Shown: piece after piece, positions 1,272-4,556 of the stretch
Layout of the letters: each line of letters begins with the position of its first letter
Numbering within the stretch: position 1 is the first letter of the stretch
Assembly (NCBI GenBank): GCA_022360775.1
Contig: JAKSCD010000129.1
Coordinates: 1 to 40,640, forward strand
Direction of reading: 5' to 3'
DNA from: Sneathiellales bacterium
Lineage (GTDB): Bacteria; Pseudomonadota; Alphaproteobacteria; Sneathiellales; Sneathiellaceae
DNA: 40,640 bases
Made by a program: the position numbers and the translations under genes
The notes under the pieces: model-generated
Database searches by the model: none
Seen by the model: only the letters and a program-made list of their open reading frames with translations
Told to the model about the DNA's origin: nothing

Positions 1272-1435
1272 CTTGTTTCGGATCAGGAACAAGATTACAT
1301 CTGCATTTTAATCCGTCGGTTTTCTCTTCTGATCCTCCTATGCGTCTTGAACTTTTCGGCCAGCGTTTTCGTTTAGTTGATACATCTCGAATTCACCATC
1401 AGTCAATTCATGTAATTTGACTTAAATTCACAGGA

Positions 1436-1498
1436 ATTTCGGCTAAAATTTTAGTTATTACTTTTGTTATTACATATAGTTAATTTATTGATTTTTAT
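1436..1498 (+). repeat. 63-bp direct repeat, copy A
   Basis: Ungapped match to 4453-4515 with 5 differences in 63 positions by eye (about 92%). It begins ATTTCGGCTAAA and ends TTGATTTTTAT, and contains GTTATTAC twice. It lies 162 bases before the Zur palindrome of the metallochaperone gene. Confidence 0.85.
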
Positions 1499-1660
1499 CG
1501 TTAATTTATAATTCTATAAATTATGCCCAGATCACAATCCGGCTTTCAAATCAACATCTGTCATAGTCTCTCAAAAGAGAGATATCCAGGCGAATTTCGG
1601 TATGCATCCGCACAGCCTTTTCTTCACCGCCCCCTTGCCTTGACGAATAAGGTTATTGAT

Positions 1661-1680
1661 TGTTATGTTATAACATAACA
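1661..1680. promoter_or_regulatory. Zur-type operator upstream of the COG0523 gene
   Basis: Perfect 20-bp palindrome TGTTATGTTATAACATAACA, 50 bases before the start codon. Its core GTTATGTTATAACATAAC recurs exactly at 4176-4193 before folE. The sequence matches the known Zur box type (ATGTTATAACAT core). COG0523 genes are classic Zur targets, which supports the assignment. The zur gene itself is not in the window. Confidence 0.85.
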
Positions 1681-1730: not shown

Positions 1731-2948
1731 ATGCAACAGCAAAAACTGCCCGTCACCGTTTTGTCCGGGTTTCTCGGTGCCGGAAAAACCACACTCCTCA
1801 ATCATGTCCTCAATAACAGGGAAGATCTCCGTGTCGCCGTGATTGTCAATGATATGAGTGAAGTGAATATCGATGCGGATCTGGTGAAAGACGGCGGTGC
1901 CGATCTCTCCAGAACCGATGAAAAGCTCGTTGAAATGACCAACGGATGTATCTGCTGCACATTGCGCGATGATCTGCTGCAGGAAGTACGCCGTCTGTCA
2001 GAGGAAGGCCGGTTCGATTATCTGGTTATTGAATCCACCGGCATCTCCGAACCTCTCCCCGTTGCGGCGACTTTTGACTTTCGTGATGAAGACGGGATGA
2101 GCCTCAATGACGTAGCCCGGCTTGATACCATGGTCACAGTTGTGGATAGCGTTAATCTTCTCCAGGACTATAGCTCTACCGATCTTTTGAAAGACCGGGG
2201 GGAATCTCTTGGTGAAGAAGATGACAGGACCCTTGTTGACCTGCTCGTCGATCAGATTGAATTTGCAGATGTAGTGCTGCTGAATAAGACCGATCTGGCC
2301 TCGCCTGAAAATCTGGATACCGCCCGCAAGGTTATCCGCTCCCTTAACCCGGATGCCAAACTTATCGAAACCCGGATGGCCAAAGTGGATTTGCGCGAAA
2401 TCCTTGATACAGGATTGTTTGATTTTGAAACGGCGCAGGATCATCCTCTCTGGGCGAAAGAGCTTTACGGTTTCGCTGACCATGTTCCTGAAACCGAGGA
2501 ATATGGCATATCAAGCTTCGTCTACCGGGCCCGTCGCCCTTTTGACCCGGCTGCCCTGCATGCTTTCATAGGCTCCACCTGGCCAGGCGTCATTCGCGCC
2601 AAAGGGCATTTCTGGCTGGCCACCCGGCCAGACTGGGTTGGCGAACTGAGCCAGGCAGGAAGTCTCGTTCGGACAACAGCAATGGGCTTCTGGTGGTCAG
2701 CAATTCCAAAACAGCACTGGCCTGACCATCCCGAATGGCGACAGACAATCGATGCGAACTGGAGTGATATTTACGGGGACCGGCGTCAGGAAATTGTGTT
2801 TATCGGCTCCAACATGGATGAGCCGGCCCTTCGCGCGAAACTGGATGCCTGTCTGGTTGCTGAAACGGGCACGGACGAGATGACGCCGGATCTCTGGAAA
2901 ACACTTCCTGATCCCTTTCCGGTATGGAAACGCGCAAACGAGCATTAG
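1731..2948 (+). CDS. COG0523 family zinc metallochaperone GTPase (ZagA/ZigA/YeiR-like)
   Basis: 405 residues from ATG 1731, chosen over the track's GTG at 1722 because AAGG sits 9 bases before the ATG. N-terminal G3E GTPase domain: Walker [10 protein letters not shown] (about residues 13-21), the metal-binding CxCC motif in [12 protein letters not shown] (about 70), ESTGISEP, and NKTDL for guanine recognition. The C-terminal half is the CobW_C-type domain. The family uses GTP hydrolysis to hand metal, usually zinc, to client enzymes under limitation. The Zur palindrome upstream and the convergent folE operon with the same operator make FolE a plausible client, as shown for ZagA in Bacillus. 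The client assignment is inference. Confidence 0.9.
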
Positions 2949-3004: not shown

Positions 3005-3481
3005 TCAGTCTGCCTGATAAGGCAGGGATGAATGATGAAGGACAATGCGCAAATTGCCTTCTTCGTCCTTTTTATAGCCCCAGCTTTTATCAACCTTTGT
3101 CGCTTCGCCGTCCTTGTTGATGAAAGTCACATGACCCATCCAGAGGGCAACATCTCCTTCAATAAAGGACGCAGATGGCTCTGCGACAACCTTGCGCCAG
3201 CCTTTGATTCCGAAGCCTGTATCATCAGGGTAATCAGGATTATGACCCACAAAATAGGAAAGCGCGCCTTCTCGTGTCGGTCGGAAGGTTTTCTCGCCCC
3301 CCGAAAGGGTCGGCTTGAACAGCACAGGCCCAAGAGAATAGCCATAGGCTGTATCCAGCGCACCATTGGCAACCCGGGTTGCGCCTTCAATTCCCTCGCT
3401 TTCATAGGCCTTAGAGATTGCGATCAATGCTTCAGACCAGATATCCCGGGCTTCGGCAAGTTCCTGTTCCGTGATTGAAAT
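3005..3481 (-). CDS. NTF2/SnoaL-like protein of the Zur operon, probable ATT start
   Basis: The track starts this ORF at an internal TTG (3427) with no ribosome site. Further upstream in frame the coding sense continues (ISITEQELAEARDIWSEAL) to ATT at 3481-3479. This is preceded by AAAGGAG with a 7-base spacer, and an in-frame TAA overlaps the start of that site, so no ATG, GTG or TTG start is possible farther up. From ATT the protein has 158 residues, no signal peptide, and an NTF2-like fold signature with the end GNLRIVLHHSSLPY. From memory, relatives are often labelled phosphoribosyl-AMP cyclohydrolase, probably because of Zur-regulon context; I see no HisI cysteine/histidine motif. It lies 59 bases after folE and shares its promoter. 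Biochemical role unknown. Confidence 0.8.
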   Translation of the reverse strand: MSITEQELAEARDIWSEALIAISKAYESEGIEGATRVANGALDTAYGYSLGPVLFKPTLSGGEKTFRPTREGALSYFVGHNPDYPDDTGFGIKGWRKVVAEPSASFIEGDVALWMGHVTFINKDGEATKVDKSWGYKKDEEGNLRIVLHHSSLPYQAD

Positions 3482-3540
3482 GGGACTTCTCCTTTAGCAA
3501 AATGAACTGGCCTTCAGATAAGACATCTATACCGGCATGT

Positions 3541-4161
3541 CTAGGCTATTAGGCTCATTAATTCTGCACGTGTCTGTGGATTTTCCCGGAACTGGCCGAG
3601 CAGCCGGCTTGTGACAGTGCTGCTCTCCTGTTTACGAACGCCTCTTGTTGTCATGCATTGATGAGCGGCATCGACAATCACGGCAACCCCTTTTGGCTTG
3701 AGAACCCTCTGGATCGTATCGGCGATTTGCGCGGTCATGGTTTCCTGTGTCTGGAGCCGTTTTCCGTAAACATCCACAAGACGGGCAAGCTTGCTGATCC
3801 CGACGACACGCTTGTCAGGCAGATAGGCCACGTGGGCCTTGCCCAGAATGGGCACAATATGATGCTCGCAATGGGATTCCAGGCGGATATTCTTCACCAG
3901 GACAATCTCGTCATATCCTTCAACCTCTTCAAAGGTGCGGCTGAGGACATCATCCGGATTTATTGTATAGCCCTCAAAAAATTCCTTATATGCCTCGATG
4001 ACCCGTTTTGGGGTATCCACAAGCCCTTCGCGATTTGGATTATCCCCTGCCCAGGCGATCAGCGTTTGCACTGCTTTAAGCGCCTCTTCCCGGCTCGGAA
4101 CAGGATAGGCTTGCTGGTCATCATTTTGTCTTTCTTGCATCGACATAATTTCATACTTCAT
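3541..4161 (-). CDS. folE: GTP cyclohydrolase I, zinc-dependent type (FolE-IA)
   Basis: Converts GTP to 7,8-dihydroneopterin triphosphate, the first step of tetrahydrofolate synthesis. 206 residues, normal length. Canonical motifs: ESHCEHHIVPI with the Cys and His zinc ligands, GKAHVAYLP, GISKLARLVD, QETMTAQIA, and the second zinc Cys in AAHQCMTTRGV. It is therefore the zinc-requiring IA type, not the zinc-independent FolE2 usually found in Zur regulons. The Zur palindrome ends only 14 bases before the first ATG. The leader must be very short, and starts at 4146 or 4140 are also possible; none has a good ribosome site. It is first gene of a two-gene operon with the NTF2-like gene. Confidence 0.93.
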   Translation of the reverse strand: MKYEIMSMQERQNDDQQAYPVPSREEALKAVQTLIAWAGDNPNREGLVDTPKRVIEAYKEFFEGYTINPDDVLSRTFEEVEGYDEIVLVKNIRLESHCEHHIVPILGKAHVAYLPDKRVVGISKLARLVDVYGKRLQTQETMTAQIADTIQRVLKPKGVAVIVDAAHQCMTTRGVRKQESSTVTSRLLGQFRENPQTRAELMSLIA

Positions 4162-4175
4162 TCTGGTTATATATT

Positions 4176-4193
4176 GTTATGTTATAACATAAC
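4176..4193. promoter_or_regulatory. Zur-type operator upstream of folE
   Basis: Perfect 18-bp palindrome GTTATGTTATAACATAAC, identical to the core of the site at 1661-1680. It lies 14 bases before the first possible folE ATG, close enough to overlap the core promoter, so Zur binding should block transcription. Confidence 0.85.
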
Positions 4194-4452
4194 TATTCAA
4201 ATGAAGCGCTTCAAGTCAACGGACAAAATACCTTTTGAGCTGATGAGAGACTTGGGAAAAACGAGACAAAATGCGGGTTTGAATTTAAAATGTTTCTTAC
4301 CCGTAACGAAATTTAGTCAGGCCTGTTTCCGGGCCTCACTTGAGGCATCAAGCCTGCGCGCGGTGCTCTTCTTTTTCTTTTAAAAATCTTCCCTTTCTTT
4401 CACTTTTCGCCGGCGCCTCCGCACCCTTTGTATTTTGCTCAAATTAACGCTG

Positions 4453-4515
4453 ATTTCGGCTAAATTTTTAGTTATTACTTTCGTTATTACTTATAGTTAA
4501 TATTTTGATTTTTAT
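4453..4515 (+). repeat. 63-bp direct repeat, copy B
   Basis: Same orientation as copy A at 1436-1498, 58 of 63 positions identical by eye, no gaps. Copies A and B bracket the complete Zur-controlled module. Confidence 0.85.
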
Positions 4516-4556
4516 GATAAATCTATATAATTTTCTTTTCTCCAAAGGCTATCAAA

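Follow-up and report, generated by a model that had tools for sequence, protein, structure and literature searches.

The question raised by this locus is where translation of a short minus-strand gene begins. In the stretch of DNA analysed here (40,640 nucleotides, referred to as the window), the frame of the 140-aa ORF at 3427-3005 remains open for 22 codons further upstream, as far as the TAA at 3496-3494, and none of these codons is ATG, GTG, TTG or CTG. A preliminary description had placed the start of the gene at an ATT lying behind AAAGGAG at good spacing, had pointed out that an in-frame TAA overlaps the beginning of this ribosome-binding site and leaves the frame of the full domain without an ATG, GTG, TTG or CTG start, and had predicted that gene callers would shorten the protein by 18 residues. 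Direct reading of the sequence confirmed this description in every coordinate checked (Table 1).

Table 1. Features of the locus, with positions in the window
Feature	Position	Strand	Basis or remark
Predicted iota-carbonic anhydrase gene (COG4337 type, metal-independent class)	3005..3481	-	158 codons, ATT to TGA
ATT, proposed start codon	3479..3481	-	gap-free alignment to the ATG/GTG/TTG starts of homologs
AAAGGAG ribosome-binding site	3489..3495	-	sequence; purine-rich site at the equivalent place in homologs
In-frame TAA closing the frame upstream	3494..3496	-	also the stop of a 10-codon ORF
TTG, first canonical in-frame codon, expected gene-caller start	3425..3427	-	18 codons after ATT
folE, GTP cyclohydrolase I	3541..4161	-	PF01227, E 7.6e-74; NF006825
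Predicted Zur box GTTATGTTATAACATAAC upstream of folE	4176..4193	.	perfect palindrome, 0 mismatches
Second identical predicted Zur box, upstream of zigA	1662..1679	.	plus-strand promoter-like -10 overlaps it
zigA, COG0523 zinc metallochaperone GTPase	1731..2948	+	NF038288, 637.5 bits (cut-off 600)
96-bp direct repeat around the zinc island, left copy	1415..1510	+	82% identical to 4432-4527
96-bp direct repeat, right copy	4432..4527	+	82% identical to 1415-1510

Start region

Read on the minus strand, the start region runs TGC TAA AGG AGA AGT CCC ATT TCA ATC ACG GAA CAG GAA CTT GCC GAA GCC CGG GAT ATC TGG TCT GAA GCA TTG. The spacer between AAAGGAG and ATT is 7 nt long (3488-3482), and the stop codon TGA lies at 3007-3005, which gives a product of 158 aa from ATT and of 140 aa from TTG 3427. 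The sequence preceding TTG 3427 (GATATCTGGTCTGAAGCA) contains no ribosome-binding site. RNA folding of the start region was no better than that of shuffled sequences (z 0.90).

A 10-codon ORF (3526-3494, minus strand, MSYLKASSFC) is located in the same frame, and its stop codon is the TAA overlapping the ribosome-binding site. Its position could reflect translational coupling to the ATT-start gene, or chance.

Identity of the encoded protein

The protein had been labelled NTF2-like. This holds for the fold class, but the protein belongs to a specific branch of it, the iota-carbonic anhydrases (NF047901, 7c5v). Pfam returned no match for it. The NCBIfam model NF047901 ("metal-independent carbonic anhydrase") matched residues 2-156 with E 7e-58 and 195 bits, a score below the curated 350-bit cut-off, which belongs to a longer model of 205 positions. 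The PDB matches were the iota-carbonic anhydrases 7c5x and 7c5v (for the latter, E 4e-49 and 51% identity), and an AF2 model built from 14 homologs (pLDDT 92.6) superimposed on 7c5v with a TM-score of 0.95 and an rmsd of 0.9 (Foldseek). Residues T58, Y76, H149 and S151, the last two within an HHSS motif at 149-152, are invariant in the alignment and correspond to T106, Y124, H197 and S199 of all2909, which were shown to be important by mutation (PMC8132391). By its sequence, modelled fold and catalytic residues, the product of the window gene is a predicted COG4337 iota-carbonic anhydrase, and metal-free hydration of CO2 is the activity to be expected from its class membership.

Homologs of the protein are named "phosphoribosyl-AMP cyclohydrolase" (L037, L038, L042 and other plasmid records) or "hypothetical protein" in RefSeq, which is probably a naming error. 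True hisI genes do occur close by in Thioclava and Phaeobacter, within the cluster that contains the carbonic anhydrase homolog so named. A second subfamily of 154-aa proteins (clade B) gained few members when further families were searched; distant homologs were all that the clade B protein detected among plasmids, and viral contigs scanned with both subfamilies contained no relative.

Start position in homologs

Comparison with homologs of 56–80% identity from many groups revealed that they start at the codon equivalent to ATT or a few codons earlier; for the cytoplasmic-type homologs of the window gene's own subfamily, the start lies at this codon or within about 4 codons of it. At least 10 homologs have a canonical start exactly on the ATT codon: (i) GTG in L002, (ii) ATG in L003, L015, L016, L017, L018, L019, L020 and L057, and (iii) TTG in L037 (Paracoccus) and L042 (Phaeobacter). 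In such homologs a purine-rich ribosome-binding site is present at a matching distance. The starts annotated in RefSeq for Paracoccus (TTG), Phaeobacter (TTG) and Thioclava (ATG) are also at this codon.

Homologs beginning at TTG 3427, named beforehand as the observation that would speak against the ATT start, were looked for, and no clear homolog was found to start there. Homologs carry CTG, CTC, CTT, GTG, ATG or other codons at this place, which is a Leu-type position. The 18 N-terminal residues are conserved in the alignment, as the preliminary description had suggested might be checked, with 41–71% identity for residues 2-18 across clade A. In the AF2 model these residues form the beginning of a helix (residues 5-45, high confidence), within which TTG 3427 falls.

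As judged from the alignment, the coding sense upstream of TTG 3427 goes beyond a frame left open by chance, because the N-terminal residues match those of homologs (ITExEL..AR..W) and the ATT column is the start codon of the homologs. Taken together, the homolog starts, the conservation of residues 2-18 and the lack of a clear homolog starting at TTG 3427 argue that ATT, one base away from ATG, occupies the ancestral start position.

In one homolog, from a Hyphomicrobiales MAG (L006, 2462-2971), the expected ATG is missing (ATA ATA AGT, compared with ATA ATG AGT in L007). It was left out of the ATT cases because an upstream in-frame ATG is present.

Non-canonical start codons in the lineage and in the gene family

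The gene infC, the textbook case of a non-canonical start, with autoregulation by IF3, served as positive control. In the genome of the window (L036, G000:C531) infC starts with ATA behind AAGGAGAAAGTAA, and its frame opens directly after a TAA stop. The ATA start was clear in 13 of 15 genus relatives; of the other two, one gave a frame-shifted match containing GTACATAGCTCGC, and the motif search missed the second. In the genus (loci L197-L206 and L208-L211) the ATA again comes directly behind an in-frame stop and AAGGAG. The occurrence of the infC ATA across the genus indicates that this lineage uses non-canonical start codons. As a negative control, ndk genes from the same class were examined, and all of them (88/88) have ATG, GTG or TTG close to where the start is expected.

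Three of the 53 distinct iota-carbonic anhydrase genes compared lack a canonical start near the aligned start; L035 (genome G115), L028 (G241) and the window gene make up this group, and all have ATT there. A possible fourth case is L030 (G363), whose aligned start is ATT and which has a GTG solely inside the ribosome-binding site. Both L035 and L028 contain an in-frame ATG or GTG eight codons downstream of ATT; conserved coding before the downstream codon and the position of the ribosome-binding site favour an ATT start in these genes too, with weaker evidence than for the window gene. The same holds for the clade B cases (L035, L028, L030) as a whole. Compared with 0/88 for ndk, the frequency of ATT gave p = 0.05 (3/53) or, with a rough count of cytoplasmic-type genes, p = 0.03 (3/41; Fisher's exact test in both cases), so the excess of ATT in iota-carbonic anhydrase genes is suggestive only. 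A switch from AUG to AUU has been found once among 61,358 reconstructed AUG starts (PMC5622118), a rate that depends on annotated starts, in which AUU is rarely allowed.

Zur boxes and gene neighbourhoods

The carbonic anhydrase gene is preceded in the same unit, on the same strand, by folE (the gap is 59 nt), and this unit is convergent with zigA. The label of Zur operon given in the preliminary description finds support in two perfect 18-bp palindromes, one before folE and one before zigA. The former is located approximately 15 nt before folE and is adjoined by promoter-like hexamers (4219-4192). No match to the Zur box with up to 3 mismatches was found in 20 shuffles of the window. Expression of the folE-carbonic anhydrase unit is predicted to depend on Zur and zinc.

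Related genes were found in Zur-type clusters of Rhodobacterales and of one other genome (G115). The homolog is accompanied by (i) COG0523, thrS and DUF1826 genes in Paracoccus seriniphilus, (ii) COG0523, thrS, hisI and DUF1826 genes in Phaeobacter, (iii) two COG0523 genes, DUF1826, zur and znuABC in Sagittula, and (iv) hisI and the C-terminal part of a thrS-like gene in Thioclava, where the Zur-type context is partial. Phaeobacter and Sagittula have Zur-like boxes with 2–3 mismatches; the one in Thioclava is weaker. In G115 (C24, L212 1641-5060), zur, the divergent zigA (which has a 4-mismatch Zur-like box) and DUF1826 are followed by the ATT-start carbonic anhydrase gene of the other subfamily, which has ATT alone at the aligned start position. 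In several other clusters the iota-carbonic anhydrase gene is followed by DUF1826. In most clade A loci no zinc genes were seen near the homolog within flanks of 1.5–5 kb; the Zur link is therefore common in some groups, not universal.

Proposed explanation and its alternatives

We consider it likely that the locus is a Zur-controlled folE-carbonic anhydrase operon encoding a zinc-sparing, metal-free enzyme translated from ATT 3481. We infer that at low zinc Zur would be released and folE, zigA and the carbonic anhydrase would be made, the last of these covering CO2/bicarbonate exchange without metal and so saving zinc, which is the likely role of the enzyme. In the cell, translation would begin at ATT 3481, 7 nt past the strong Shine-Dalgarno site; this codon would have arisen by substitution from an ancestral ATG, GTG or TTG, and initiator tRNA would still insert fMet there, with lower efficiency. 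IF3 may discriminate against ATT, as it does for infC and sigR, and by this analogy control by initiation factors is plausible. It is a rather doubtful proposition that AUU starts arose several times (in the window genome, G115, G241 and G363) because they place a stress enzyme under initiation-factor control, as a translational layer on top of Zur.

The genome of the window is a single MAG-like assembly (579 contigs, 90.7% completeness, 4.6% contamination), and the carbonic anhydrase gene is absent from the 24 genus members examined, so the ATT base is read from this one assembly. Were the true base G, ATT having arisen as an error in the consensus or from mixed strains in the metagenome assembly, this one substitution would account for everything, since homologs carry ATG at the site. 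Such an error is unlikely, as the ORF, the catalytic residues and the ribosome-binding site are otherwise intact, ATT occurs at the homologous position also in G115, G241 and G363 (assemblies of 20–80 contigs), and the ATA of infC, consistent across isolate-quality relatives, shows that such codons are tolerated. A true ATT is probably the correct reading, and a better bet than a one-base assembly error, because ATT recurs in other genomes and infC starts with ATA. The absence of the gene from the genus members might also mean that it is dispensable, and non-canonical starts usually lower the yield; it is nonetheless quite improbable that ATT is a real but damaging mutation in a gene that is little translated or decaying, given that there is no frameshift or internal stop, the catalytic residues are invariant and the Shine-Dalgarno site is intact.

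Initiation at TTG 3427, which a gene caller would predict from the first canonical codon in frame, can be given very little credence in view of the missing ribosome-binding site, the Leu-type position inside helix 5-45 and the lack of a clear homolog start there. We judge it just as improbable that the gene is expressed by ribosomes arriving from the mini-ORF at 3526, which either read through TAA 3496 or terminate and reinitiate: the mini-ORF shares the frame and ends at the TAA overlapping the ribosome-binding site, but it lacks a good ribosome-binding site of its own and no counterpart was found in homologs. A readthrough product would exceed the length of any close homolog, whereas reinitiation could still use ATT and would then be an addition to the ATT start, not an alternative to it.

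Relation to known systems

Carbonic anhydrases are classic zinc enzymes. The window protein resembles all2909 of Anabaena PCC 7120 (7c5v) and Bn86287 of Bigelowiella natans (7c5x) in its full-length sequence, predicted fold and the four mutation-tested residues (PMC8132391, in which Zur is not mentioned); it differs from them in having no presequence (cytoplasmic type), an ATT start and a Zur-type operon. Gamma-class Cam, YtiB and other replacement enzymes are known from Zur regulons (PMC2770081, PMC6103462). The window locus is similar to those of such zinc-independent or alternative enzymes in that an additional or substitute carbonic anhydrase is placed behind Zur, beside COG0523 and folE genes, although, unlike Cam and YtiB, the enzyme belongs to the metal-free iota class. 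By analogy, the operon would extend the known logic of Zur replacement to this class. A link between Zur and COG4337 or the iota-carbonic anhydrases was made in no paper found in the literature library searched. Zinc depletion of Paracoccus denitrificans raised the expression of two "hypothetical" genes, located behind a COG0523 gene, about tenfold (PMC5387054). The presence of a metal-free class behind a Zur box suggests a testable physiological role for bacterial iota-carbonic anhydrases, namely zinc sparing.

With regard to its start, the gene resembles infC (AUU, AUA or AUC) and Streptomyces sigR (GTC, repressed by IF3; PMC5472188), in both of which a non-canonical codon lies behind a strong Shine-Dalgarno site and gene callers misplace the start. 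Unlike these, it is a gene of a metabolic zinc-stress enzyme, for which any IF3 control is postulated by analogy. It may be regarded as a candidate, beyond infC and sigR, for translational control via the start codon. The recurrence of the ATT start illustrates how the N-terminus of a family can be lost in gene calling.

Other features of the window and its genome

The zigA/carbonic anhydrase/folE island is bracketed by the two copies of an AT-rich 96-bp direct repeat (Table 1), of which no third copy was detected in the window or in approximately 145 kb of other contigs of the same genome. Together with the absence of the gene from genus relatives, these repeats may indicate an inserted or recombined cassette.

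On another contig of this genome (C2; L231 1397-2123), a Zur-like box (3 mismatches) lies 46 bp before a DUF1826 gene. At 28-612 of the window, the tail of an encoded protein (VPLPAALPLYGAGIAILGFLGWRRKRA) resembles a sorting signal of the PEP-CTERM/exosortase type.
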